Both the position numbers and the translations under genes were made by a program. The notes beneath the pieces are model-generated. The model did not search any database. It saw only the letters and a list, made by a program, of their open reading frames with translations, and was not told the origin of the DNA. From Pseudacidovorax intermedius (GTDB lineage: Bacteria; Pseudomonadota; Gammaproteobacteria; Burkholderiales; Burkholderiaceae_C), in contig NZ_LDSL01000061.1 of the NCBI RefSeq assembly GCF_001476815.1, positions 1 through 64,000 on the forward strand: a stretch of DNA of 64,000 bases. The letters run 5' to 3'. Below, piece after piece: positions 19,603 through 51,361 of this stretch (positions within the stretch are counted from its first letter, which is position 1; every line of letters starts with the position of its first letter).

Positions 19603-19893
19603 TCATCCCCATAGTTGTGTCGTAGCGAGAAAAATTACCGGAAATGCCCATAAAGCCACCGCAACAATGGACCATGTTTCTGATTCCTTGCGTATCAATG
19701 CGACGAACGATAATAGGGCACTCGCGCATATTATAGCTGCCATGCCATAGATAATGAGAGCTCCTGCAGCGGGAACCAAATAAATCCTCGGTACTGACGC
19801 CAGTTTGCTAGCGAATAGTGCTACAGCGATAGATCCAAAAATCAGCGTCAATATTGAAGCCAGAGAGAAGCCGAATTTTTTCTTTGAGATCAT
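19603..19893 (-). CDS. Small AT-rich membrane protein at the end of the T6SS island
   Basis: 96 aa with three hydrophobic segments (~8-30, ~38-63, ~70-92), starting MISKKKFGFSLASILTL. Not recognised. It lies 41 bp after the frameshifted beta-helix gene on the same strand and shares its low GC. It may be part of the second effector/immunity cassette, for example a membrane-located immunity or accessory protein, but there is no direct evidence. The first cassette has no equivalent gene. Confidence 0.6.
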   Translation of the reverse strand: MISKKKFGFSLASILTLIFGSIAVALFASKLASVPRIYLVPAAGALIIYGMAAIICASALLSFVALIRKESETWSIVAVALWAFPVIFLATTQLWG

Positions 19894-19934
19894 TTCTGAT
19901 GTGAGGGAGCGCTGATATGCTCAAACCTGGCGAG

Positions 19935-21186
19935 TCAGTTGAGACGAATATTGGAGCCATCGAGTTTGGCTTGTCCTTTGGCCAGCGGTTGAATCGTGCT
20001 TTCCTTCACCTGAGTGTTTTCGAGGTTTACGCCGAGACTGACGCGGTTGTTTACGACTTCCAGTTTTTCGATGCGGCTGTTGGAAATGTCGAGACTCTCG
20101 ATGGTGTTGCTTTCGAGTCGAAGATGGCGTGACTCCAGCCAAGAGGCATCAACCGTCGGAAGCACGCAATTGCGGATCAGAGAATACCGGTTATTCGGCG
20201 CCTTGCTCCATTCCTCAGGGCTCAGGGGCCTGCCGGCACCCAGACCCACAGCAAGATTCAGGTCGCTGCCGAAATTGCACTGATCAAGCAGGACCTCATC
20301 CGCACTGTCCATGCCGATCTCAAATGAGAAATTTCTCCTTTTCCCGAAAATTTGGCATTGGGACATTGTTAGCTTGCCCATGCTCTTTGCGCTTGCATTC
20401 AGGTAGCCGCCCCTGACACGCTCGACAAGAACATTTCCTGCTATTTCAGCGTCTCTCATATCTAAAAAATCGATATTGGTATCTTGGATAACGACGCTTT
20501 GCAGCTTGCAACCAGCCATGTCGAATTTGCTTCTCAGGTTGGAGGACTGGATTATTATCTCTGCCCGATCAAAGTTCTCGCCACTAGCCGCCTTGCTATC
20601 CGTCCATACCTCTGTATTTTCTGTTTCGCAATCTGCTAGACTAATTTTTTTATAACCTGCGATTGAGAAACATTTTATGTTGCATTTAAAAAAACTCGCA
20701 TCTCCGCGGCTGCCGATCCCACCCCAATTGTTTTTGTCTTCGTCATGTCCCTGAAACTGGCAGTCTTCAAACCGCACGTTTTTACTGCCACTGTAATCGA
20801 GAACAATAGTTCTGCCTTGTGCTTTGCAACGTACATAGCGAAGGGAGTCCGCCTTTCCCCAGCTTATTACTCCCGAAAAAAAAGCAGTCTTCAAACGTTG
20901 TGTTTTTTAGATCCTTCAGTTTTATTTCATAGATTCCTAGAAAATCACAATTGACAAAATGAATATTTTTCCAACTTAATTCAATGAAATTGACTCCAGA
21001 AATTTCCGCATTCTTAATAACCAGCAGATCATCCCCATTTTCGCGCAATCTTAATTCTGGGTCACTTAAGTAACTAAATATTTTCTCAAAATATTTAATA
21101 TTTTGTTTTGGTCTCATTGCGTGATCTTTCTCATGTGTTAAGCCGAAAAAAATGACTGCCCAATTAAAAAACGAGCGGCGTTTCAT
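19935..21186 (-). pseudogene. Second beta-helix (candidate immunity) gene, frameshifted at a T8 run
   Basis: Paralogue of the intact gene at 22620-23864. An N-terminal frame runs from ATG 21186 (MKRRSFFNWAVIFF) to a conserved EDC; the C-terminal frame resumes as FFSGVISWGKADS and continues to 19935 (KLDGSNIRLN). The break falls in a run of eight A on the plus strand (20876-20883). Seven would restore a ~415-aa protein aligned end to end with the paralogue. It starts 2 bp inside the preceding orphan effector stop. This could be decay, phase variation, programmed slippage or a sequencing error. The product would be a right-handed beta-helix-like repeat protein with a short basic-hydrophobic N-terminus. 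Confidence 0.8.
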
Positions 21187-21187
21187 T

Positions 21188-22573
21188 TTATTTTTCAATA
21201 TTCCGATGAATTATTTCTTTTGTTCTATAATAACCTTTTGTTTCATAATTTTTAAACAAAAAATTCCAATCAGTAACCTCCCCACGCTCTCCTTGGCATC
21301 GCTGGAAAGCCCAAGTCCGAAGGCCCCAGTCGGATTTTCCTGCCCAGACATCCAAAGGAAAGAGCCAAGGATCCGTGAAGTCCATGTCTGCGCTCCAGTC
21401 TTCCTTGTTCACCGTGGGTTTTTTGAGCGTCACTTCAAGGAATGCTTGTTCGACGGAGCGCGCTCGATTCCCTCGGTTTTCGTCATCAGGCCCCGCGTGC
21501 GCATCCAGCGAACTGTTCAATAGATCGAGATGCCCTTTGTCGAGCGTCATGGTCAGCAGCTTTCCGTCAATGTCCAGTTGGGGCGATAGAAGGTGCCACG
21601 TCTTCAGTGCTTTGCTGCCCCGTCCTTCACCTCCCTCAAACACCCAAATCCGAACGCCTTCGATGCAATCCAGCCGTGCCACCGTGGGACTGAGCTTGAT
21701 GGGCACACGCCCGCCGCTATCGGGCAACTGGACCGGCTCGAAGGTCAGCGGCGGCACGATCTTCTTTGTTGGGTCGGTGCTCATCACCGCCAGATAGTCC
21801 AGGGCCACGCACAGGCGCGGCCTTTCGTTGAGCGGACGGCCGGCGCTGCGGCTGCTACGCAGCGTCTTGATCTGGTGGATCAGCCGCTCGGCCGGGTTCA
21901 GCAAGGTGCCCGAGGGTGGGCGAAGGGTCCAGCTGTCGAGCTCGTGGTCGAGGTTCTGCTTGCCGATGGGGCCGCCACAGCTGGAGACGATGAAGCGCGT
22001 GTGCTCGCGCGCACCGCCGGGCTGCGGGCCCTGAATGCCCGGATCGCGGGCGCTTTGCACTTCGATGCCGCGCACGGGCGTGCGGGCGTTCTGGCCGGCG
22101 ATGGTCTGCATCTGGCGCCAGGCGACCTCGTAGACGCCGCTGCGGTGGCTGTGGCCGCTGAAATGCCAGTCCACGCAGACGTCGGCGGGCACGTGTGTGC
22201 TGTAGGGGCCATCGGTGGCGCCGGCAGCGCGCACGGCGGTCTCGAAGTAGCGCGCCTGGTTGATTTCGCAGGTGCCGGTGTTGACCTGGTTGAAGCCGGC
22301 CCAGGCGACGGGATTGCCCGGCCCGCGGGGCGGCACGAAGCGCATGTCCTGCGGCGGGGCGGAATAGGCGATGGGCTCGTCGTAATTGATGAGGGTGAAG
22401 TGGCTGGCGACGGCGAGGCTGGCGCCGGGGCTGCGACGCTTGTGGTCCTGGGCCTGGGCCAGCAGGGCCAGTTGGGCTTCGCTGAAGGACTGTTGGGCGC
22501 GTGGCAGGATGGCGGTGCCTTGCCTCGACCTAGAAACGCTTCTATGTGAGCAAGTCATATTCGCTGAGGACAT
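21188..22573 (-). CDS. Orphan C-terminal fragment of the T6SS metallophosphoesterase
   Basis: 461-aa frame whose residues from ~18 match the full-length protein (23864-27022) from its residue ~610 to the end. It keeps the late metal motifs (ASH; GHSH) but lacks the DxH, GD and GNHE motifs, so it cannot be an active phosphoesterase alone. Up to about IWVFEGGE the match is almost exact. The last ~150 residues differ clearly (HLLSPQLDIDGKLLTM against HLLSPDFFSSQKESTM) apart from a conserved WSADMDFTDPW ... WAFQRCQGERGE block. The first ~17 residues are junction sequence and no ribosome site precedes 22573. It is followed by its own beta-helix partner. Best read as a displaced C-terminal cassette. 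Confidence 0.75.
   Translation of the reverse strand: MSSANMTCSHRSVSRSRQGTAILPRAQQSFSEAQLALLAQAQDHKRRSPGASLAVASHFTLINYDEPIAYSAPPQDMRFVPPRGPGNPVAWAGFNQVNTGTCEINQARYFETAVRAAGATDGPYSTHVPADVCVDWHFSGHSHRSGVYEVAWRQMQTIAGQNARTPVRGIEVQSARDPGIQGPQPGGAREHTRFIVSSCGGPIGKQNLDHELDSWTLRPPSGTLLNPAERLIHQIKTLRSSRSAGRPLNERPRLCVALDYLAVMSTDPTKKIVPPLTFEPVQLPDSGGRVPIKLSPTVARLDCIEGVRIWVFEGGEGRGSKALKTWHLLSPQLDIDGKLLTMTLDKGHLDLLNSSLDAHAGPDDENRGNRARSVEQAFLEVTLKKPTVNKEDWSADMDFTDPWLFPLDVWAGKSDWGLRTWAFQRCQGERGEVTDWNFLFKNYETKGYYRTKEIIHRNIEK
21640..22522. repeat. Long direct repeat, copy A (effector C-terminal region)
   Basis: About 880 bp repeated at 24313-25195 (offset 2673, no gap seen between 21698 and 22522). I counted roughly 16 differences over ~825 bp by eye, about 98% identity. 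The match ends abruptly at ...GTGCCTTG (22522 / 25195) and fades at the low-coordinate end, where both copies turn AT-rich. Confidence 0.85.
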
Positions 22574-22619
22574 CGATTTGGCTGAAGAGGTTTTTATCGA
22601 CGTCGGATGCCCAGGTCAT

Positions 22620-23864
22620 TCATTCCAGGCGGATGTTGGCGCCATCGAGTTTGGCTTGCCCTTTCGCCAGCGGTTGAATTCTGCTTTTCTCAACTTGAGT
22701 GTTTTTTAAATTAACCTCCAAGCTGATTCGGTTGTCTACGACTTCAAGCTTTCCGATGCGGCTGTTGGAAATATCAAGACTTTCGATGGTGTTGTTTTCG
22801 ATTCGAAGATGGCGTGACTCAAGCCAAGAAGCATCTAAGATGGGGAATGTGCTATTGCGAATAACAGTAGATCTGTTCTTGGCGATGTTCTGCCATTCAT
22901 CATTTTCCAAGGGGCCACCTGCGCCAAGGCCAACGGATAAATTCAGATCACTGCCGAAATTGCACTGATCTATTAGCACCTCGTCAGCTGCCGCTAATCC
23001 GAGCTCAAAAGAGAATTTCCTCCTTCTGCCGAAAATTTGACATTGGGACATGGCCAGCTTGCCCAAGCTTTTGGCGCTTGCATTGACATAGCCTCCTTGC
23101 ACGCGTTCAAGATATACATCGCCCTTGATGCTTGATCCGCTTAGATCGAAATTGTTTATATTTGTATCGCTAATCGACAATGACTGAAGGTTTGCTGATC
23201 GTATTTGAAAACTCCCGCGAAGAATGCTGTTTTTGACAGAAATTTGTGCGTTCAAGAAGTTGACGCCGCTATTGGCCTCGCTATCAGTGTGAATGGAAAC
23301 GTTTTCGCACTCGCAATCTTCGATATCGAGCTTTGCATCCCCGGCCCATTTGAACCATTTTGCGTAGCATCTGAGGTACTTTATTTCTCCTTCTGATCCA
23401 ATAGTTCCCTGCTGATTTTTGTCTGGACTCGGCCCAACAAATCTACATGCTTCGAACACGGTGTCTGTGCTCCCCCTTTCCGCAAACATCACTGATGCTC
23501 CGGACCAAGAGCATCGTATGAATCTAACGCTTTTTGTAACTCCAAAACTTAAAATTCCGGAGAATCTGCAATCTTCATATTTAACATTAATTGAATTCTT
23601 CGGTGCTATCTCATACATTCCAAAAAAATCGCAATTTTTAAAAATAATGTTTGACCAAATTACGCCTTTGAAGGGCTCTCCGGAAAAAATTGCATTCTCA
23701 ACAATAATTAATGACTGCCCAAATTTTTTTTCTCTGAGCCCATCATCTTTTAGAGATTCAAAAATTTCTCCAAATTGATTTATATTTTTTTTGTTCATGA
23801 GGGCCTCTGTTTTAAGTGCCGGAATGCTAAAAATGGAACCTAGAATTAAAATGCGTCTGCGCAT
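22620..23864 (-). CDS. Beta-helix repeat protein, candidate immunity to the T6SS metallophosphoesterase
   Basis: 414 aa, not assigned to a named family. It starts MRRRILILGSIFSIPALKTEA, a short basic-hydrophobic leader that might be an export signal; an internal ATG (residue 23) would give a cytosolic form. The body is a long series of short beta-strand turns (FKNCDFFGMYEI, YEDCRFSGILSF, LESRHLRIENNTIESLDISNS), as in pentapeptide-like right-handed beta-helices, but without a strict five-residue code. Its ATG shares one base with the effector stop (TAATG), so the two are translated together. This is the usual arrangement for a T6SS effector and its immunity protein. Clearly lower GC than the effector. 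Confidence 0.7.
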   Translation of the reverse strand: MRRRILILGSIFSIPALKTEALMNKKNINQFGEIFESLKDDGLREKKFGQSLIIVENAIFSGEPFKGVIWSNIIFKNCDFFGMYEIAPKNSINVKYEDCRFSGILSFGVTKSVRFIRCSWSGASVMFAERGSTDTVFEACRFVGPSPDKNQQGTIGSEGEIKYLRCYAKWFKWAGDAKLDIEDCECENVSIHTDSEANSGVNFLNAQISVKNSILRGSFQIRSANLQSLSISDTNINNFDLSGSSIKGDVYLERVQGGYVNASAKSLGKLAMSQCQIFGRRRKFSFELGLAAADEVLIDQCNFGSDLNLSVGLGAGGPLENDEWQNIAKNRSTVIRNSTFPILDASWLESRHLRIENNTIESLDISNSRIGKLEVVDNRISLEVNLKNTQVEKSRIQPLAKGQAKLDGANIRLE

Positions 23865-26800
23865 TATTTTGAAGCCAATTTAATTATTCTATCTTTTTCT
23901 GAATAGTTTTTTTCTTTGTAATTGTCAAATAAAAAATCCCAATCAGGCACCTCCCCGCGCTCCCCTTGACAGCGTTGGAACGCCCAAGTCCGAAGGCCCC
24001 AGTCGGATTTCCCTGCCCAGATATCCAAAGGAAAGACCCAAGGATCCGTGAAGTCCATGTCTGCGCTCCAGTCTTCTTTTTTGACACTGGGTTTTTTGAG
24101 GATCACTTCAAAGAATGCTTGTTCAATGCCACGACCGCGATTGTCTTGATCGCCCCCGTCAGCGTCCGAATAAGCATCAATCGCTCTGTTTAATATTTCA
24201 ACATGGCCCTCCTTTAGCTGCATCGTTGATTCCTTTTGGCTTGAAAAGAAATCAGGTGACAAAAGATGCCAGGTCTTTTTGGCTGCAGGGCCTCGCCTTT
24301 CACCCCCCTCGAACACCCAAATCCGAACGCCCTCGATGCAGTCCAGCCGTGCCAGCGTGGGACTGAGCTTGATGGGCACACGCCCGCCGCTATCGGGCAA
24401 CTGGACCGGCTCGAAGGTCAGCGGCGGCACGATCTTCTTTTTTGGGTCGGTGCTCATCACCGCCAGATAGTCCAGGGCCACGCACAGGCGCGGCCTTTCG
24501 TTGAGCGGACGGCCAGCGCTGCGGCTGCTGCGCAGGGTCTTGATCTGGTGGATCAGCCGCTCGGCCGGGTTCAGCAAGGTGCCCGAGGGCGGGCGAAGGG
24601 TCCAGCTGTCGAGCTCATGGTCGAGGTTCTGCTTGCCGATGGGGCCGCCGCAGCTGGAGACGATGAAGCGCGTGTGCTCGCGTGCGCCGCCGGGCTGCGG
24701 GCCCTGGATGCCCGGATCGCGGGCGCTTTGCACTTCGATGCCGCGCACGGGCGTGCGGGCGTTCTGGCCGGCGATGGTCTGCATCTGGCGCCAGGCGACC
24801 TCGTAGACGCCGCTGCGGTGGCTGTGGCCGCTGAAATGCCAGTCCACGCAGACGTCGGCGGGCACGTGTGTGCTGTAGGGGCCATCGGTGGCGCCGGCAG
24901 CGCGCACGGCGGTCTCGAAGTAGCGCGCCTGGTTGATTTCGCAGGTGCCGGTGTTGACCTGGTTGAAGCCGGCCCAGGCGACGGGGTTGCCCGGCCCGCG
25001 GGGCGGCACGAAGCGCATGTGCTGCGGTGGGGCGGAATAGGCGATGGGCTCGTCGTAGTTGATGAGGGTGAAGTGGCTGGCGACGGCGAGGCTGGCGCCA
25101 GGGCTGCGACGCTTGTGGTCCTGGGCCTGGGCCAGCAGGGCCAGTTGGGCTTCGCTGAAGGACTGTTGGGCGCGTGGCAGGATGCCGGTGCCTTGTCGGT
25201 CCACGCCGCCGAGCAGGCCACTCGTCAGGTTTTTGAAGTTTTCCCCTTGTCCCCAGCCCAGCAGGGCCAGGACCTGGGTGGCCGGCGGGCCGCGGTCGGG
25301 CTCCGCGCCGAAGGCGATGACAGCATCCTCCAACGGCGTGAACAGCGTGTAGAACCAGTCGTAGTTGTCGACGCGGTAGTTGTTGCCTGTCAGGGCCTGG
25401 GCATAGGCGGGCCCATAGGCGAGGGCCGCCTCGTAGATGGTCATGTTGTGGTCGGCGGCGATGCCTTCGTTGGCCCTGTTCGGGCTCCAGGCGCTGGCCT
25501 TGTCGAAGTCCTTGTAGGTCGCGGCCAAGTCGTCGATCTCAAGGTTCTTGCTCCAGTTGACGGCCTTCTTTCCAGCCCAGGCGACCGGCCCGATGCGGCT
25601 CAGGCTCTGCTTCTGGCCTCGCACCACAACGGTTTGGGTCTCGCTCATCTGCCGCTCGCGGCCCCATCGCCCTTGTTCCAGCGCATCGGTGGTGTCTTCC
25701 AGCACGCCCATGGCCGCGCCCCACTCGTTGATGCGGGGGCTGATGCCGTACGGGACGCTGTAGGCCTCGTGGTTGCCGCTGGTCATGAACACGGGCAGCT
25801 TCAGGCGCGTGTAGGCATGCCGCACCAGGCTGAAGGCCAGCAGGTCGTCTTGCCCTCGCGGGTACAGGCCGGGCGTGTCCAACTGGTTCATGACGTTGAA
25901 TCGCTTCCACTGCTCGGCAATGGTGTCGCCGACCTGGCCCGGGTTGATGTTGCGGTTGAAGTCGATCAGGTCGCCGGTGAGCAGCAGGGCGGTGTCCGGC
26001 TTGCCGGCGGCGCCGAACTGGTCGAACAGTTGCTTGAGGGCGTTGAAGCTGTTGCACACGCGCTGGCCCACGGGCGGCTGGGTGAACTTGGCGTCCTCGA
26101 TCACCTTGGCGGGCGACTTCGCCAGGGCGCAATGGCGCACGTTGATGTGCACGTCGCTCAGGTGTCCCAGCTTCAGCGGCTGGTTGCTGTCTAGGCGGAT
26201 GACCGGATGCCAGGCGGCCAGGCGCTGCTGGCCCTCGACCAGGGCGCGGGCGTTGGCGGCTGTGGCGTCGACGTCGTACTCCAGCAGGCCGGCTTCGAGG
26301 CCGCGAGGCGCCACGCTGCCATTGGCAGACAGATGGCGGTGTCGAGGGTCGCGGGTCTGCGCGCCGAGGAAGGCCTCGACGAACAGGTCCTGCGCGTGCA
26401 CGGTTTCGGCGGCGCACAGGGTGGGATAGTCCTTCTTCTGCTGCGCGGTGGGGCGCACCATCCAGGCGAAGCTCTTGAAGCTGCCGGATTCGGGGGCATT
26501 GGCCAATTCGGCCAAGTCGAGTTCGATCTCGTAGACCTGGCCGCCGCCGAAGCCGGCCGCCGCATAAGCGCCGACCGCCTGGGGGCTGAGGGTGGCGAAG
26601 GCCTCGCCGCGCTGGTTGTAGATCAGGGTGCCCGCAGCGAACTTGCCCACGCGCCAGACCTTGATGGCGCGCCGGGCTTTGGTGCAGTCGGGGCCGTCGC
26701 CGGTCAGGCCGCCCACACTGATATCGGCGGCCGGCTTGATACCGTCCATGCCGACCAGGCGCAGGTGGCGCGCGACGATGGCGCAGGCGGCGCCCGGGCC

Positions 26801-27022
26801 TTCACCGCCCATGGGCGTGACGATGGCCTGGCGGTCGAGCGTGTAGCGGCCCCGGTCGGTGTCCGGCACACCCAGGGCGGGCGCGGCGATGAAAAGGCTG
26901 CATTTCTGTTGCGCGGGCGTCAGCAGGAGCGGCGTTCCCAGGCTGGGATAGAGGATCAGGGCTGCCAGTTGCGGCGGCTCGCTGCAGTCGCACAGGGCGC
27001 CGGGGGTGTCGGATGTGCTCAT
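23864..27022 (-). CDS. T6SS-associated calcineurin-like metallophosphoesterase (candidate effector)
   Basis: 1052 aa. Residues 1-280 form an N-terminal region I do not recognise. The metallophosphoesterase core runs from ~285 with metal motifs D290-V-H292, G350-D351, G416-N417-H418-E419, H650 (ASH) and G732-H733-S734-H735, with long inserts between them. A variable C-terminal region spans ~900-1052. No signal peptide. It is encoded 22 bp after a DUF4123 adaptor, itself 4 bp after vgrG, and is coupled to a beta-helix gene. This order points to a T6SS cargo effector that would hydrolyse a phosphoester such as nucleotide, nucleic acid or phospholipid in a rival cell; the substrate is unknown. 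A housekeeping phosphoesterase is unlikely in this context. Confidence 0.82.
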   Translation of the reverse strand: MSTSDTPGALCDCSEPPQLAALILYPSLGTPLLLTPAQQKCSLFIAAPALGVPDTDRGRYTLDRQAIVTPMGGEGPGAACAIVARHLRLVGMDGIKPAADISVGGLTGDGPDCTKARRAIKVWRVGKFAAGTLIYNQRGEAFATLSPQAVGAYAAAGFGGGQVYEIELDLAELANAPESGSFKSFAWMVRPTAQQKKDYPTLCAAETVHAQDLFVEAFLGAQTRDPRHRHLSANGSVAPRGLEAGLLEYDVDATAANARALVEGQQRLAAWHPVIRLDSNQPLKLGHLSDVHINVRHCALAKSPAKVIEDAKFTQPPVGQRVCNSFNALKQLFDQFGAAGKPDTALLLTGDLIDFNRNINPGQVGDTIAEQWKRFNVMNQLDTPGLYPRGQDDLLAFSLVRHAYTRLKLPVFMTSGNHEAYSVPYGISPRINEWGAAMGVLEDTTDALEQGRWGRERQMSETQTVVVRGQKQSLSRIGPVAWAGKKAVNWSKNLEIDDLAATYKDFDKASAWSPNRANEGIAADHNMTIYEAALAYGPAYAQALTGNNYRVDNYDWFYTLFTPLEDAVIAFGAEPDRGPPATQVLALLGWGQGENFKNLTSGLLGGVDRQGTGILPRAQQSFSEAQLALLAQAQDHKRRSPGASLAVASHFTLINYDEPIAYSAPPQHMRFVPPRGPGNPVAWAGFNQVNTGTCEINQARYFETAVRAAGATDGPYSTHVPADVCVDWHFSGHSHRSGVYEVAWRQMQTIAGQNARTPVRGIEVQSARDPGIQGPQPGGAREHTRFIVSSCGGPIGKQNLDHELDSWTLRPPSGTLLNPAERLIHQIKTLRSSRSAGRPLNERPRLCVALDYLAVMSTDPKKKIVPPLTFEPVQLPDSGGRVPIKLSPTLARLDCIEGVRIWVFEGGERRGPAAKKTWHLLSPDFFSSQKESTMQLKEGHVEILNRAIDAYSDADGGDQDNRGRGIEQAFFEVILKKPSVKKEDWSADMDFTDPWVFPLDIWAGKSDWGLRTWAFQRCQGERGEVPDWDFLFDNYKEKNYSEKDRIIKLASK
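24313..25195. repeat. Long direct repeat, copy B (within the full-length effector gene)
   Basis: Partner of 21640-22522. It covers residues ~610-905 of the full-length effector. Near-identity between copies next to strongly diverged 3' ends implies a recent duplication or continuing gene conversion, and supplies a substrate for recombination that would swap C-terminal/immunity cassettes. Confidence 0.85.
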
Positions 27023-27044
27023 TGGAGGAACTGGGGGCAGCCCG

Positions 27045-28151
27045 TCAGGCCGTGGTCGATTTGGAGAGGGCGTGCGTCATCGCCGCCGTTCGGGCTTCAT
27101 AGCTGCGGATCAGCGCGGCGTCCCGGTCCTGAAGCCAGCCGTGTCTGACGGAGGCAGGGAGGGTGGTCAGCAGGGCGTCGAGCGTGGGCGGCGCACTTTC
27201 TGCCGAGTCGGACTGCGAGGGCGGGGCGGCAAGAGCCTTTGCCAGCGCAGGGTGGGTGTGAAACGCCGCATGCGTCAGCAGTGCCTGCCGGCAGGCGGTC
27301 AAATGTTCGTTCCAGGTGACGAGGCCGGCGCCGGTGGCAAAGTCCATCGCTTCGCGGGCGATGCCTCGCTGCAGCAGCGGATGCATCCGGGCCATCCAGT
27401 GGGCGTCCGGGTGCCGGGTTTCCTCGAGTTCCTCGGCCAGAAGAGCAGCGGCCAGTTGCGGTGCGCCGATGGTGGCGAGCGCATCGCTCCATGCGCGGGA
27501 CAGGCGCATGGGTTGGGTGTGACGCATGGGCGCCGTTCGCCCAGGGCCGGACAGGCGCCGCGCTTGGCCCTGGGCATCCCACCCTGCCCACCAGGTCATG
27601 GGTTGCAGGAAGGCGCGACGCGCTTCCGCGGGCCAGTGTTCGACGGCATCGAAACCGATGCGCGGGTCGAAGTAGCGCAAGAGCACCGGCACGTCTTCAT
27701 CGCCGCCTTCCAGGCGGGCATGCAGGAAGCTGCGCAGGTGGGCGGCCAGCGGGGCCAGCTTGATGGGGCTGGCCAGCAGGGTCAGTGCGTCATCGCAGGC
27801 CTGGGCACTCAAGGCGCTCAGCAGCGAGGCGTCGCGGGCGGGCGGCAAGGCGATCAGCCAGGGACCGGCATCGGCCATGTCCGCTTCCGGCGTCTGCAGG
27901 AACAGCTGCTCATGGTCCAGCCCATGCGCTTCGAGCAAGGAGGCGGGATCCACTGCATGGCATTGGCCGGCGATGACAAGGGCGTAGTGGCGCCGCGTGG
28001 GCAGGCCGGGGGCCGGAGCCCCGGCACTGGCGGGGGCCAGCCATTGGCCGATCTGTCTTTGCCGCGCCTGATGCAGCGCTGTCGTGAACGCGAGGTGGGC
28101 TGCCTGCACGGCTTCACGGCTGCCGGGTGAGTGAGGGGAGTGCACGGCCAT
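27045..28151 (-). CDS. DUF4123 adaptor/chaperone of T6SS cargo
   Basis: 368 aa. The N-terminal half matches DUF4123 in pattern: RHYALVIAGQCHAVDP, LFLQTPEADMADAGPWLIAL and LRSFLHARLEGGDEDVPVLLRYFDPR. Proteins of this family load a cognate effector onto the VgrG spike encoded beside them. Start ATG 28151 lies 4 bp after the vgrG stop, with GAAGG just before it. The C-terminal ~170 residues are helical and probably effector-specific. Confidence 0.85.
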   Translation of the reverse strand: MAVHSPHSPGSREAVQAAHLAFTTALHQARQRQIGQWLAPASAGAPAPGLPTRRHYALVIAGQCHAVDPASLLEAHGLDHEQLFLQTPEADMADAGPWLIALPPARDASLLSALSAQACDDALTLLASPIKLAPLAAHLRSFLHARLEGGDEDVPVLLRYFDPRIGFDAVEHWPAEARRAFLQPMTWWAGWDAQGQARRLSGPGRTAPMRHTQPMRLSRAWSDALATIGAPQLAAALLAEELEETRHPDAHWMARMHPLLQRGIAREAMDFATGAGLVTWNEHLTACRQALLTHAAFHTHPALAKALAAPPSQSDSAESAPPTLDALLTTLPASVRHGWLQDRDAALIRSYEARTAAMTHALSKSTTA

Positions 28152-28155
28152 ACCT

Positions 28156-30726
28156 TCAGGTCTGGGGGACGGCGGCCGATCCGCGACGCAGGGCGCGCTG
28201 CATGCATTCCCAACACACCTTGGCAGGCTGGGGCACGGCACGCGAGTCGTCCAGCGGGGTGGCATGGCTGGCCGCATGCTCGATCCAGACGCCGGCCGTG
28301 CCGTGCAGGATGCCGCTGGCGCGCCATTCGCTGAAACTGGTGCCGCCGTTGATCTCCACGGACTTGCTGGCTTCGATGTAGACCGTGTCTTCGGTGCTGT
28401 GGATGGCCACGTCCTGCAGGGCGGTGAGCTTCATCGCGTCGCTCTGCGCCTCGATTCGGATGTCGCCCTCGCTGGCGATGGCACGCAGGCCATGTTCCAG
28501 CGTGAAGAAGCGCAGGCCCTCGGCCGCTGCGGCGAGCAGCCGGCGCCCGATGCTCCAGGCCGTGTGGGTGCCGCTGGTGACCTGGAACTGCGTGCCGCTG
28601 TGGCTCTGGAGATCCTGGTTGGTCGTGATGGCCAGGCCAGCGGGCGTATCAAGCACCAGGTGCGCATCCGCCAGTTCAGGAAAGCGTCCGGCGGCGGCAT
28701 CGGCCGCACCCTGACCCTGGATCGCACGGTTCTGCCGCCGGACGTCCTGGGCGACATGGGCTTGGTCGTCGTCCTGCTGCTGCGCCTTGGCCGTGACGGC
28801 CGCCTGATGCAGACCCTCGATCTGGTCCCGCCCGCCGGTGAGCCGGGCCACGGCATTGCGCAGAACCTTGACGTGCTCGGCCGCATGGGGCCGCCCCTCG
28901 GTGGAGATCAGCATGCCGTCCTGCGCCCGCAGCACGCCGTGCCCGTCGGTGCGCAACTCGAAGCCTTCGCCTCGCGCCTCCTTGCGCCCCTCGTTGTCCT
29001 CGATGCGCGTGATGCTGCCCAGGCTCAGGCTCGAATGCTGGTGGTCGCTCTTGAGCTGCGCCTGGATGCGCCCGGCCGTGTCGTCCATCACCAGGTGGTT
29101 GCTGCGCCCCGCCGCGCTGTTGCCGCCGCCTTCCGCGAGCTCGCGGCTTCGGAAGCCGCTGAGCGCCGACTGCTGCGGCAACGCCCACGGCGGCAGGTTC
29201 AGCTGGTTGTGCAGCCGCCCCGTGCAGATCGGCAGGTCCGGATCGCCGGCGATGAAATCGACCACGACCTCCTGCCCGATGCGCGGGATGTGCACGCCGC
29301 CCAGCTGGTTGCCCGCCCACGGGCTGGAGACACGCACCCAGCAACTGCTGTGCTGGTTCTCCCGGCCCTGCCGGTCCCAGGGGAACTGCACCTTGATGCG
29401 GCCCAGTTCGTCCGTCCACAGGTTCTGCCCCTCGGGGCCCACCACCAGCGCCGTCTGGGGGCCATGGGTGTGCGGCTTGATCCGGGTGATGTCTGGGCGC
29501 AGCGGCTCGGTGATCGGGTGGGCCGTCAGGTCGACTTTCACGCGCCAGTGCTGCTGGCGGTCAGGGGCGGCATCCCGGACCTGGCTGTCCGGCCCGGTGT
29601 CCTCCACCAGCAGGTCGGTCTCCAGGATCAGGTAGTCGGCATTGGCCGCATTCCTGGGGTGGTTCTGCAGGGTGAAGGTGAAACCCGGCACCATGGCGCG
29701 CAGGTTGCCGCTGGCGCGGGCACGGGCGCCCGCGGTGCGCAGCGCCTGCATGCGCAGCCGGGCGATCAGATCGCCTTCGGCGCGCGGGTCGTTCGGGGAC
29801 GCTGTCCCGGCGTTCGGCTGGGCGTAGTGGCTGCCACCCAGGTCGGCATGCCAAGCGTAGACCTCGGCATCGGCGAAGCCGGTGGGCCGGGCATCGGTGC
29901 GGCTCGCGCGCAGGTCGGCGCGGGGGCGGGTGTAGTCGTAGTCGCGGCTGCTGTAGCGCCCCGGGGTGAGGCGGCTGTCGGGCACGAAGGCGTGGAGGTA
30001 CTCGGCATCGAGCTTCCAGCCGGGCGGGTGGTAGTCCACCTGCCGGTAGGCCTGGCTGGGGTTGGGCAGGTAGGCGCCCAGGTGGTCCGAGAGCACGAGG
30101 CGGTGGGCGCTGTCGTCGTGCTCGAAGTGGTAGCTGATGCCCCATTCCTGGCACAGGCGCTCGAAGAAGGCGAAGTCGCTCTCGTTGAACTGGGTCTGGT
30201 AGTCGCGGATGGGGTAGCGCTCGAGCAGGCGCTTGTCGACGGGGAAGGGATAGTCGGCGAGGACGGCATCCAGGATGTCCACGACGGTGGCGTTCTGGAA
30301 GATGCGGCAGTCGGCGTTGAGGGTGGCCAGGTGCAGCCAGGGGCGCAGCACGAGGCGGTACTGCAGGTGGCGGCCTTCCTCGCCGACCAAGGCAGCCTCG
30401 GTGATGAGGGCGTTGATCTGGCGCAGACCGGCGCCGACGGCATCCACGGCCTCACCAACCGCACCGGGGAGAAAGTAACCCGAGCCATCGAGTTCGATCT
30501 CGCAGCAGATCTCCCGGCCGATGAGGGCGTCGAGGTCGAGGTTGGCGCAGGCCTCGGCCAGGGCGCCGGGGTTCAGGGAATCCGGGGTCTGCAGCATCAG
30601 CTCGTAGCAGAAGAGGGTGTTGACACCCTCGTGGCCCGCAAGACGCACCGGGTGCAGCAGCGGCTCGCCGGCAAAGAGGGGCAGCGCGGGTGAGCTCACC
30701 CGCAGCGTGTGTGACAGCGTGGACAT
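28156..30726 (-). CDS. vgrG: T6SS spike protein VgrG with C-terminal DUF2345
   Basis: 856 aa. A gp27-like base (~1-370) is followed by a gp5 OB-fold segment (~425-520; DELGRIKVQFPWDRQG, SSPWAGNQLGGVHIPRIGQEV, GDPDLPICTGRLHN). A DUF2345-like beta-needle extension follows (~640-800; repeated short beta turns, IGRRLLAAAAEGL, SKSVEINGG), ending in a ~40-residue tail. It forms the puncturing tip of the secretion needle. No core T6SS structural genes are in the window, so this is an orphan vgrG island. A ribosome site GGGAGAG is four bases before the ATG but lies inside a hairpin (30731-30773). Confidence 0.95.
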   Translation of the reverse strand: MSTLSHTLRVSSPALPLFAGEPLLHPVRLAGHEGVNTLFCYELMLQTPDSLNPGALAEACANLDLDALIGREICCEIELDGSGYFLPGAVGEAVDAVGAGLRQINALITEAALVGEEGRHLQYRLVLRPWLHLATLNADCRIFQNATVVDILDAVLADYPFPVDKRLLERYPIRDYQTQFNESDFAFFERLCQEWGISYHFEHDDSAHRLVLSDHLGAYLPNPSQAYRQVDYHPPGWKLDAEYLHAFVPDSRLTPGRYSSRDYDYTRPRADLRASRTDARPTGFADAEVYAWHADLGGSHYAQPNAGTASPNDPRAEGDLIARLRMQALRTAGARARASGNLRAMVPGFTFTLQNHPRNAANADYLILETDLLVEDTGPDSQVRDAAPDRQQHWRVKVDLTAHPITEPLRPDITRIKPHTHGPQTALVVGPEGQNLWTDELGRIKVQFPWDRQGRENQHSSCWVRVSSPWAGNQLGGVHIPRIGQEVVVDFIAGDPDLPICTGRLHNQLNLPPWALPQQSALSGFRSRELAEGGGNSAAGRSNHLVMDDTAGRIQAQLKSDHQHSSLSLGSITRIEDNEGRKEARGEGFELRTDGHGVLRAQDGMLISTEGRPHAAEHVKVLRNAVARLTGGRDQIEGLHQAAVTAKAQQQDDDQAHVAQDVRRQNRAIQGQGAADAAAGRFPELADAHLVLDTPAGLAITTNQDLQSHSGTQFQVTSGTHTAWSIGRRLLAAAAEGLRFFTLEHGLRAIASEGDIRIEAQSDAMKLTALQDVAIHSTEDTVYIEASKSVEINGGTSFSEWRASGILHGTAGVWIEHAASHATPLDDSRAVPQPAKVCWECMQRALRRGSAAVPQT

Positions 30727-49603: not shown

Positions 49604-50614
49604 TCAGCCTTCGCGCGTCGGCCAGCCCTGCAGATGCCGCTCGGCCAATCGCGTGAGCGCCGCCATCCAGTGCGCGTCCTCGTTGAGGCAGGGGATGTAG
49701 TGGAAGGCCTCGCCGCCCGATTCCAGGAAGGCTTCGCGCGCTTCCATGGCGATTTCTTCCAGCGTCTCCAGGCAGTCGGCCGGAAAGCCGGGGCACATCA
49801 CGTCCACCCGCTTGAGGCCCTCCTTCGCCAGCTGCCGCAGCGTCGGCTCGGTGTACGGTTGCAGCCATTCGGCGGCGCCGAAGCGCGACTGGAAGGTGGC
49901 GCGCCAGGCCTCGGGCGGCAGGCCCAGGCGTTCGGCCAGCAGCTCGGCGGTGCGCATGCACTGCACCTGGTAGGGATCGCCCAGCCGGATGTTGCGCGCG
50001 GGAATGCCGTGGAAGCTCATCACCAGCATCTGGCCGCGGCCGTGGGCCTGCCAGTGCTGCTCCACGCTGCGGGCCAGCGCGTCGATGGTAGCGGCGTCGT
50101 CGTGGTAGTCGGCCACGAAGCGCAGCTCGGGCACGCGGCGCGCCCTGGCGCACCAGTCGTTGACGGCGTCGACCATGCTGGCCGTGGTGGTGCCCGAGTA
50201 CTGCGGATAGGCCTGCAGCACCAGCACGCGGTGGATGCCGGCATCGGCCAGCTGCTGCAGGCGCGTGGCGACCGAGGGCTCGCCGTAGCGCATGGCATGC
50301 AGCACCTGCACGCGGTGGCCGGCCTGCGCCAGGCCTTCGCCCAGCAGCCGGGCCTGCGCCTCGGTGTGCACCGCCAGGGGCGAGCCCTGCGGCGTCCACA
50401 CGCTGGCGTACTTGGCCGCCGACTTGGCCGGCCGGGTGCGCAGAATGATGCCGTGCAGGATCGGCAGCCAGGCGGCGCGCGGAATCTCCACCACGCGCGG
50501 ATCGCCCAGGAACTGGGCCAGGTAGGGCCGCACCGCGGCGGCCGTGGGGGCGGCCGGCGAGCCGAGGTTGCACCAGAGGACGGCGGCGCCGGAGGAGGGG
50601 GACGGGGAAGGCAT
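49604..50614 (-). CDS. hemH: Ferrochelatase
   Basis: Inserts Fe(II) into protoporphyrin IX as the last step of haem synthesis. 336 aa. Family motifs: NLGSPAAPT near the start, LQAYPQYSGTT (~133-143), catalytic H202 in MSFHGIP, and CPGFPADCLETLEEI (~275-289). The start at 50614 leaves only 15 bp to the divergent HAD gene, so its promoter must overlap that gene. Confidence 0.94.
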   Translation of the reverse strand: MPSPSPSSGAAVLWCNLGSPAAPTAAAVRPYLAQFLGDPRVVEIPRAAWLPILHGIILRTRPAKSAAKYASVWTPQGSPLAVHTEAQARLLGEGLAQAGHRVQVLHAMRYGEPSVATRLQQLADAGIHRVLVLQAYPQYSGTTTASMVDAVNDWCARARRVPELRFVADYHDDAATIDALARSVEQHWQAHGRGQMLVMSFHGIPARNIRLGDPYQVQCMRTAELLAERLGLPPEAWRATFQSRFGAAEWLQPYTEPTLRQLAKEGLKRVDVMCPGFPADCLETLEEIAMEAREAFLESGGEAFHYIPCLNEDAHWMAALTRLAERHLQGWPTREG

Positions 50615-50629
50615 GCGCTATTCTGGGCC

Positions 50630-51361
50630 ATGCCCGAGACCCTTCACGCCGGACTGGACCGGCAGCGCATCGCCGCCATCACCCTCGACCTGGACGACAC
50701 CCTGTGGCCCGTGTGGCCCGCCATCGAACGCGCCGAAGGCGTGCTGCACCAGTGGCTGCAACGGCACGCACCGCGCACGGCCGAGCTGGTCGCCTCGCCG
50801 GCCGAATTGCGGGCGCTGCGCGTCGCGACCGAGAAGGAGCGCTCCGACCTGGCCCACGATCTGGCGGCGCTGCGGCGCGAGTCCATCCGCCTGGCGCTGC
50901 GCCGCTCCGGCGAGGACCCCGCCCTGGCCGAACCCGCCTTCGAGGCCTTCTATGCCGAGCGCCAGCGCGTGGAGCTGTACGAGGACGCGGCACCGGCCCT
51001 GGACTGGCTGGCCGCGCGCTATCCGCTGGTGGCCGTCTCAAATGGCAATGCCGACCTGGGCCTCACCGGCGTGGCCCGCTGGTTCCGCGGCGGCTTCAGC
51101 GCCTACCTGTTCGGCAAGGCCAAGCCCGATGCGGCCATCTTCCATGCCGCGGCGGCCTCGGTCGGCGTGGCGGCCGATCAGGTGCTGCACGTGGGCGACG
51201 ATGCCGCGCTGGATGTGGCGGGCGCGCTGGGCGCCGGCATGCAGGCGGCCTGGCTGGTGCGCGACGAGCGACCCTGGGCCGACGGCGCGCGGCCGCAGCT
51301 GATCGTGCCGGACCTGCGGGCCCTGTGCGTGGCGCTGGGCGCCGCGCCCGATCTCGGCTGA
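50630..51361 (+). CDS. HAD-superfamily phosphatase
   Basis: 243 aa. Motif I LDLDDTLW with nucleophile D20 and D22; motif II VSNGNAD; motif III lysine in GKAKPDAAIF; motif IV HVGDDAALDV. A helical C1-type cap lies between. It resembles HAD-IA phosphatases acting on small phosphorylated metabolites (YjjG/5'-nucleotidase-like), but the substrate is open. Divergent from hemH. Confidence 0.88.
   Translation: MPETLHAGLDRQRIAAITLDLDDTLWPVWPAIERAEGVLHQWLQRHAPRTAELVASPAELRALRVATEKERSDLAHDLAALRRESIRLALRRSGEDPALAEPAFEAFYAERQRVELYEDAAPALDWLAARYPLVAVSNGNADLGLTGVARWFRGGFSAYLFGKAKPDAAIFHAAAASVGVAADQVLHVGDDAALDVAGALGAGMQAAWLVRDERPWADGARPQLIVPDLRALCVALGAAPDLG

Follow-up and report, generated by a model that had tools for sequence, protein, structure and literature searches.

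The window, a stretch of 64,000 nucleotides from Pseudacidovorax intermedius (contig C254 of its own 5.5-Mb genome, G000), carries on the minus strand, from 30726 to 22620, a row of four genes that encode a VgrG protein, a DUF4123 protein, a large metallophosphoesterase, and a partner protein with a predicted beta-helix. This row probably represents a rare bacterial weapon unit, whose phosphoesterase (the effector) would be injected into rivals by a type VI secretion system (T6SS), while the partner would shield the envelope of the owner. Only 4 bp separate vgrG from the DUF4123 gene and 22 bp the latter from the effector gene, and the TAA of the effector and the ATG of the partner overlap by one base. 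The DUF4123 frame is open from 28277, and the ATG at 28151 places its start 4 bp behind the vgrG stop. A first description of this DNA, made from its letters alone and called the original prediction below, had seen in this order and these overlaps a T6SS cargo cassette, and the coordinates and starts bear out the order and the overlaps. The features of the cassette are as follows.

28156..30726, minus strand: vgrG, start of the cassette, encoding the T6SS spike protein of 856 amino acids (TIGR03361, E 2e-126; Phage_GPD, T6SS_Vgr, and DUF2345)
27045..28151, minus strand: gene of the DUF4123 adaptor (PF13503, E 1e-19)
23864..27022, minus strand: gene of the metallophosphoesterase effector, 1052 amino acids (PF00149, E 2.3e-8 over residues 284-470; alignments A2, A4, and A5)
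26147..26155, minus strand: metal motif I, D290-x-H292
25970..25975, minus strand: metal motif II, G350-D351
25769..25777, minus strand: metal motif III, G416-N417-H418
25073..25075, minus strand: metal motif IV, H650
24818..24829, minus strand: metal motif V, G732-H733-S734-H735
22620..23864, minus strand: gene of the partner, 414 amino acids, a degenerate pentapeptide-repeat protein and proposed periplasmic immunity protein
23796..23864, minus strand: twin-arginine N-terminus of the partner, residues 1-23

The effector had been described as a calcineurin-like phosphoesterase of 1052 residues with all metal motifs, and both the PF00149 match and the presence of the five motifs confirm this assignment. 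The motifs D290xH292, GD351, GNH418, H650, and GH733xH735 follow each other in this order and are invariant in alignments A2 (nine effector sequences, including that of the window) and A5 (nine sequences, including two very distant relatives). Metallophos is the sole match of the effector in Pfam, and NCBIfam yielded none at E ≤ 1, hence none to a lipase model of the Tle1 phospholipase family. Sequence searches of the PDB with the effector profiles and with the effector of the distant genome G729 gave no significant match, nor any relative of solved structure at E < 0.3. The protein is composed of a conserved N-terminal region of about 280 residues, the enzyme core, and a variable C-terminal region. 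While it shares the five metal-binding motifs, in order, with the calcineurin-like superfamily (PF00149), it differs from the latter in its two flanking regions and its much greater length. A Kyte-Doolittle scan detected no 19-residue segment above 1.6, so the effector has no hydrophobic stretch fit as a signal. A search of the plasmid collection with the effector returned no match. A role in defence was considered and dropped, because four proteins submitted to PADLOC all remained without a match. Two of the nine effectors in A2, from loci L031 and L032, carry an insert of nearly 200 residues (approximately 450-640) between metal blocks III and IV that is seen in none of the others; the first 450 residues or so of these two proteins are 64-65% identical to the window effector, and the remainder is 41% identical.

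The partner is, judged by its sequence, a degenerate pentapeptide-repeat protein. In the window it matches Pentapeptide_3 at E 4.5e-5 with 24.0 bits (cut-off 27), and none of the pentapeptide repeat models (PF00805, PF13599, PF13576) scores above its curated cut-off in this protein. The partners of G316 (32.7 of 38 bits) and G464 (33.4 of 38 bits) also stay under the pentapeptide cut-off, and the very distant partner of G729 is the sole one above it (55.6 of 38 bits). Because the scores fall below the curated cut-offs, we label the partner 'degenerate, pentapeptide-like'. A profile of the partner family matches a solved pentapeptide protein at E 4.2e-5. The original prediction was thus right, at curated cut-offs, to deny the partner a classic pentapeptide code, but the protein still is a degenerate member of that kind. 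With the pentapeptide repeat proteins Qnr, MfpA, McbG-like proteins, HalA, and TvpB (the last by name only) it has in common a degenerate repeat and a weak but recurrent similarity. It differs from them in its twin-arginine N-terminus, its length, which is mostly 400-430 amino acids among the partners, and its tie to a toxin-like gene.

Twin arginines occur in 20 of 21 partner starts, the exception being G729, and a lipobox in nine of the 21. Many of these pairs stand in contexts (SRRSFL, SRRIFL, NRRQFL) that resemble signals of the twin-arginine translocation (Tat) pathway. A simple home-made rule (not SignalP), which asks for RR and an uncharged hydrophobic stretch, is passed by 18 of 20 partners (G729 not being among the 20), including that of the window, and failed by the partners of G303 and L031. 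Applied as a control to 142 open reading frames (ORFs) from ten loci, as delimited by a simple ORF caller, the rule was passed by six, five of which are partners. Such an N-terminus suggests an exported immunity protein and a toxin acting in the periplasm, since the combination of an exported partner with an effector lacking hydrophobic segments would conform to the pattern of periplasm-acting T6SS toxins.

Relatives of the effector/partner pair are rare. The effector was found in 6 of 15 genomes of the genus, 3 of 299 of the family, 3 of 399 of the order, 3 of 369 of the class, and 3 of 398 of the phylum (the last at E ≤ 1e-8), in draws of genomes that overlap; each count takes in G000 itself, and fragments, as in G255, are among the matches. 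When named genomes were scanned, 12 loci emerged, from the genera Variovorax, Collimonas, Pseudacidovorax, and Xenophilus. With records of the same locus merged (L026 with L019; L034, L020, L011, and L004 with L033), there are 13 distinct loci with a near-complete effector, namely the window, G307, G303, L025, L027 to L033, G316, and locus 1 of G464, the effector being broken in G303 and G464. All 13 loci have a partner homologue immediately downstream, itself broken in L031, and vgrG and the DUF4123 gene are situated directly upstream in eight (the window, G307, G303, L027, L028, L029, L030, and G316). The two proteins also co-occur across genomes. At order level, effector (E ≤ 1e-3) and partner (E ≤ 1e-10) were detected in the same three of 399 genomes (G000, G316, and G464), and at genus level in the same six of 15, two of which (G071 and G302) represent one strain, E41; G300, another genome of the genus, adds a single weak partner match of 71 residues.

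Further features of these loci support a T6SS cargo cassette. The core protein TssC is encoded in all four genomes tested behind L025 and L029 to L033, which cover the vgrG-less loci L025, L031, L032, and L033. A PAAR gene lies downstream in G316, and a very similar ORF was recognised by eye in L027. Partner genes occur in tandem in L030 (three), G316 (two), and G464 (three), and G303 and both loci of G464 have an open partner frame despite a broken or deleted effector, the second G464 locus consisting of vgrG, the DUF4123 gene, an effector tail, and the partner. Judged by their neighbours, two very distant relatives keep part of the cassette context: the phosphoesterase gene of G986 overlaps by 4 bp an ORF resembling the end of vgrG (DUF2345, E 6.8e-7, 29.7 of 30.7 bits), and the gene of a pentapeptide protein overlaps the end of the phosphoesterase gene in G729. 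Downstream of the pair in G729, an 889-residue ankyrin-repeat protein is encoded (L065:4560-7229), perhaps by a second immunity-type gene. A 79-residue ORF upstream of the effector in L025 looks by eye like a vgrG N-terminus; it received no score with tblastn or Pfam and was not counted.

The genome that contains the window also has T6SS core genes, among them three for TssC/VipB. The window VgrG is 82% identical to a VgrG encoded on contig C36, which harbours one of the three TssC genes, and the system on C36 thus is a likely launcher. The gene flanking the cassette, which we named trmJ (its Pfam match is SpoU methylase), was found in 15 of 15 genus genomes. The phosphoesterase cassette occupies this flank in three of them (G000, G307, and G303), and that of G306 (L081:2258-10674) holds a vgrG of 69% identity with an alternative cargo, a DUF6531/RHS-repeat protein of 1856 residues. 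In G308 there is no vgrG match within 7 kb, and the next gene on the same strand is imuA-like. The trmJ flanks of G299, G300, G301, G305, G309, and G071 gave no vgrG match in 12-16 kb; the contig of G177 ends, the flank of G304 spans only about 6 kb, that of G255 has a weak vgrG match 13 kb away, and G302 was left out. These data support different contents at one orphan vgrG site; the original prediction had called orphan vgrG loci established sites of effector exchange. Its proposal of a new T6SS effector/partner family likewise gains support from the gene order, the co-occurrence, the TssC genes, the PAAR gene of G316, the tandem and orphan partners, and the varied trmJ slot.

The best explanation, to which we assign a probability of about 0.74, is an auxiliary T6SS cassette that comprises a VgrG spike, a DUF4123 loader, a phosphoesterase toxin acting in the periplasm, and an exported immunity partner of the pentapeptide type. 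The DUF4123 protein would load the effector onto the VgrG spike, as DUF4123 adaptors do for other cargo; compared with the NCBIfam model of Tla1, the adaptor of Tle1, it scores 69.2 bits (cut-off 200). Once delivered into a neighbouring Gram-negative cell, the effector would attack a phosphate ester of the envelope, such as a phospholipid head group or a lipid-linked precursor, by two-metal catalysis, with the periplasm as its most likely site of action. The pentapeptide-type beta-helix of the partner would be exported in folded form via the twin-arginine signal and block incoming effector in the periplasm of the owner. Secretion, toxicity, and immunity, as well as compartment and substrate, are what we infer from sequence. 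The closest analogy is the Tle1-Tla1-Tli1 system (VgrG4a) of Pseudomonas aeruginosa, which, in the accessible portions of its description (PMC13133936), also combines a spike, a DUF4123 adaptor, a periplasm-acting enzyme, and exported immunity, the last two being predicted in our case. The same portions state that the immunity protein of the periplasm-acting Tle1 is an outer-membrane lipoprotein and that the products of Tli immunity genes bear lipoprotein or Sec signals (PMC13133936). In contrast to that system, the window enzyme is a calcineurin-like phosphoesterase and not a phospholipase, and its partner is of the Tat and pentapeptide type and not a Tli1a.

Several observations weigh against this explanation. 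No vgrG or DUF4123 match was found in approximately 8-10 kb upstream of the effector in five of the 13 loci (L025, L031, L032, L033, and G464 locus 1); with vgrG and DUF4123 adjoining in the other eight, the homologues nevertheless are not mostly outside T6SS loci, a distribution that the original prediction had named as speaking against it. The sole PDB match of the effector profiles, UDP-2,3-diacylglucosamine hydrolase, is not significant (E 0.36). The window partner has the twin arginines without a lipobox, and the G729 partner has neither; moreover, the start codons of the partners were chosen by the analyst, and some of the 21 are closely related. L031 combines an open effector with a broken partner, the one case of the reverse of the expected decay, and both genes are broken in a second copy of the pair in the window and on contig C45 of G071. 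The context of G729 is known for the downstream side only, and the contamination estimates of G729 and G986 are 6-7%. Finally, a signal-less homologue of the partner head, 217 residues long, is encoded in one core T6SS of G000, G307, and G303, where tssK precedes and a tssL-like gene follows it (L049:14013-14666, which is 50012-50665 of G000 contig C36; L118:1739-2392; L119:1645-2298). These are the same three genomes that have the cassette at the trmJ flank; G177 has a matching tssK followed by vgrG instead. The homologue may be an accessory of the machine or a cytoplasmic guard, and such a protein could serve the T6SS itself.

This homologue would fit a different reading, in which the partner does not confer immunity but assists the T6SS as an accessory or loading protein. 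A precedent exists in Serratia, where, according to the accessible part of the source, TvpB proteins with pentapeptides form part of accessory complexes that serve the assembly of the spike (PMC13373197). However, nearly all partners examined have an export-type N-terminus, and the partner gene is placed after the cargo. Diverged partners also occur in tandem, and partners stay open in loci that lack an intact effector. The three copies of the 217-residue protein are 74-96% identical to each other; between G000 and G307/G303 the identity is 74-76%, compared with 38-40% for the partner heads of the same pairs, so this protein and the partner evolve differently. An accessory role of the partner is therefore unlikely. 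Calcineurin-like folds include nucleases. The effector might be a nuclease or nucleotide phosphodiesterase that acts in the cytoplasm, by a logic like that of Mre11/SbcD, with the partner protecting through DNA mimicry as do Qnr and MfpA; the nearest solved relatives of the partner by sequence are pentapeptide proteins (such as McbG-like, MfpA, and Qnr proteins). This likeness is weak, however, and concerns the repeat in general, and the twin-arginine, signal-like N-terminus of the partners does not suit a cytoplasmic protector. The net charge of the 20 partners examined ranges from -7 to +7 and is not strongly acidic; because the partners are near neutral, we rate DNA mimicry as low, and the cytoplasmic scenario as a whole is quite unlikely.

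Hosts of the cassette, for instance Collimonas and Variovorax, are associates of fungi and plants, and phosphoesterases can act on eukaryotic lipids. Aiming of the effector at eukaryotic neighbours (amoebae, fungi, or plants), with the partner as a regulator, is nonetheless very unlikely, since antibacterial effectors need just such a partner, dedicated, duplicated, fast-diverging, and equipped with an export signal. The five loci without a vgrG match nearby would also be expected if the effector were a phosphate-scavenging enzyme with a helper that adjoins vgrG by chance. Against such a role stand the adjacency to vgrG and DUF4123 in eight loci, the vgrG-like end beside the distant G986 gene, and the lack of a hydrophobic segment fit as a signal in the effector, which render it extremely improbable.

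A literature search, with all bioRxiv preprints and most subscription papers outside its scope, found no description of a calcineurin-like T6SS effector or a pentapeptide immunity protein in the accessible text of the matches listed. The T6SS toxins described so far include lipases, nucleases, amidases, ADP-ribosylases, NADases, pore formers, and similar proteins. If the cassette functions as an antibacterial toxin-immunity unit, the calcineurin-like phosphoesterase would add an enzyme class to the T6SS toxins, possibly with an envelope target, and the pentapeptide beta-helix, a fold familiar chiefly from DNA mimics and protectors of gyrase, would have a new job as an exported immunity protein.

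Behind the intact pair, the interval treated in the original prediction holds a second, degenerate unit that its text omits and that consists of an effector tail and a frame-broken partner. The features of this unit, together with the segments in which the intact pair is diversified, are listed here.

21188..22573, minus strand: second copy, C-terminal fragment of the effector, a 461-residue ORF without metal motifs I-III (effector residues 608-1047 at 88% identity)
20782..21198, minus strand: second partner copy, N-terminal piece in its own frame (partner profile positions 1-112)
19935..20894, minus strand: second partner copy, C-terminal piece in the other frame (partner profile positions 103-410)
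24128..24325, minus strand: diversified effector segment, residues ~900-965, behind the catalytic core (from DNA identity between copies and the distances among 11 effectors)
23130..23864, minus strand: diversified partner head, residues 1-245 (from DNA identity between the two window copies)

The ORF corresponds to effector residues ~608-1052, and the second partner has diverged and is readable only in two frames. Between the two effector copies, DNA identity is 93-100% over residues 608-905, drops to 53-58% over residues 906-965, and returns to 85-95% over residues 966-1025. The partner copies are 38-56% identical over residues ~11-248, apart from one segment of 72%, and 55-92% identical over the remainder (249-414). 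A similar step separates the three partners of L030, with 27-57% identity over the first ~240 alignment columns and 90-100% afterwards. The window and L030 may be read as cases of cassette exchange by recombination in conserved flanks, and the second unit would then be a toxin tail with an immunity remnant left by recombination between cassettes. Polymorphic toxin arrays (Rhs, contact-dependent inhibition (CDI), and the Ralstonia aux clusters) likewise feature displaced C-terminal toxin fragments with their own immunity copy and tandem immunity arrays; for the Ralstonia aux clusters, immunity arrays and orphans are reported in the accessible part of the source (PMC11481896). Unlike in these arrays, the catalytic domain of the window effector is not C-terminal, and the diversified part is situated behind the core and extends into the N-terminal half of the partner.

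The effector segment behind the catalytic core and the partner head would be the likely recognition pair. Among 11 effectors, the mean distance is 0.63 for residues 895-965, compared with 0.47 for residues 550-880 and 0.50 for residues 966-1052. In a distance test with 11 pairs, the effector tail tracks the partner beyond what the core does, with partial r values of 0.60 for the partner head and 0.53 for its tail. A broader proposal, which we regard as tentative and somewhat doubtful, would make the cassette the representative of a new class of T6SS toxins. Its members would be periplasmic metallophosphoesterases that strip or cleave an envelope phosphate ester and are neutralised by a pentapeptide beta-helix that is exported via Tat and often lipidated, with a specificity that resides in a swappable module (some 60-150 effector residues behind the core plus the N-terminal half of the immunity helix) and is shuffled by recombination in near-identical flanks. 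Not all data agree with such a module. The distance test supports co-inheritance and does not single out the partner head in particular. In the family as a whole, conservation of the partner tail does not exceed that of the head (mean distance 0.60 versus 0.55). The pair of G316 displays no step between head and tail, and in the array of G464 the last ~80 residues alone stand out. When full-length effector pairs were compared in segments of 50 residues, residues 901-950 were the lowest in four of eight pairs.

Other members of the family display mosaics of their own. The effectors of L027 and L048 (G316) are 76-98% identical, segment by segment, over residues 1-400 and 44-78% identical beyond; this pattern looks like a replacement of the C-terminal 600 residues, and the partner heads of the two loci are 48% identical. 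Only fragments of the effector are left in G255 and on contig C45 of G071, and some of these share a frame with partner pieces. The C45 contig (L021:5140-9023; also L035 and L036) carries a scrambled cassette remnant beside a truncated vgrG, with fragments of effector and partner in both orientations and partly in one frame. On contig C79 of G255 (L022:2194-4170), one open frame of 658 residues matches the N-terminus of vgrG, a piece of the effector, and most of the partner.

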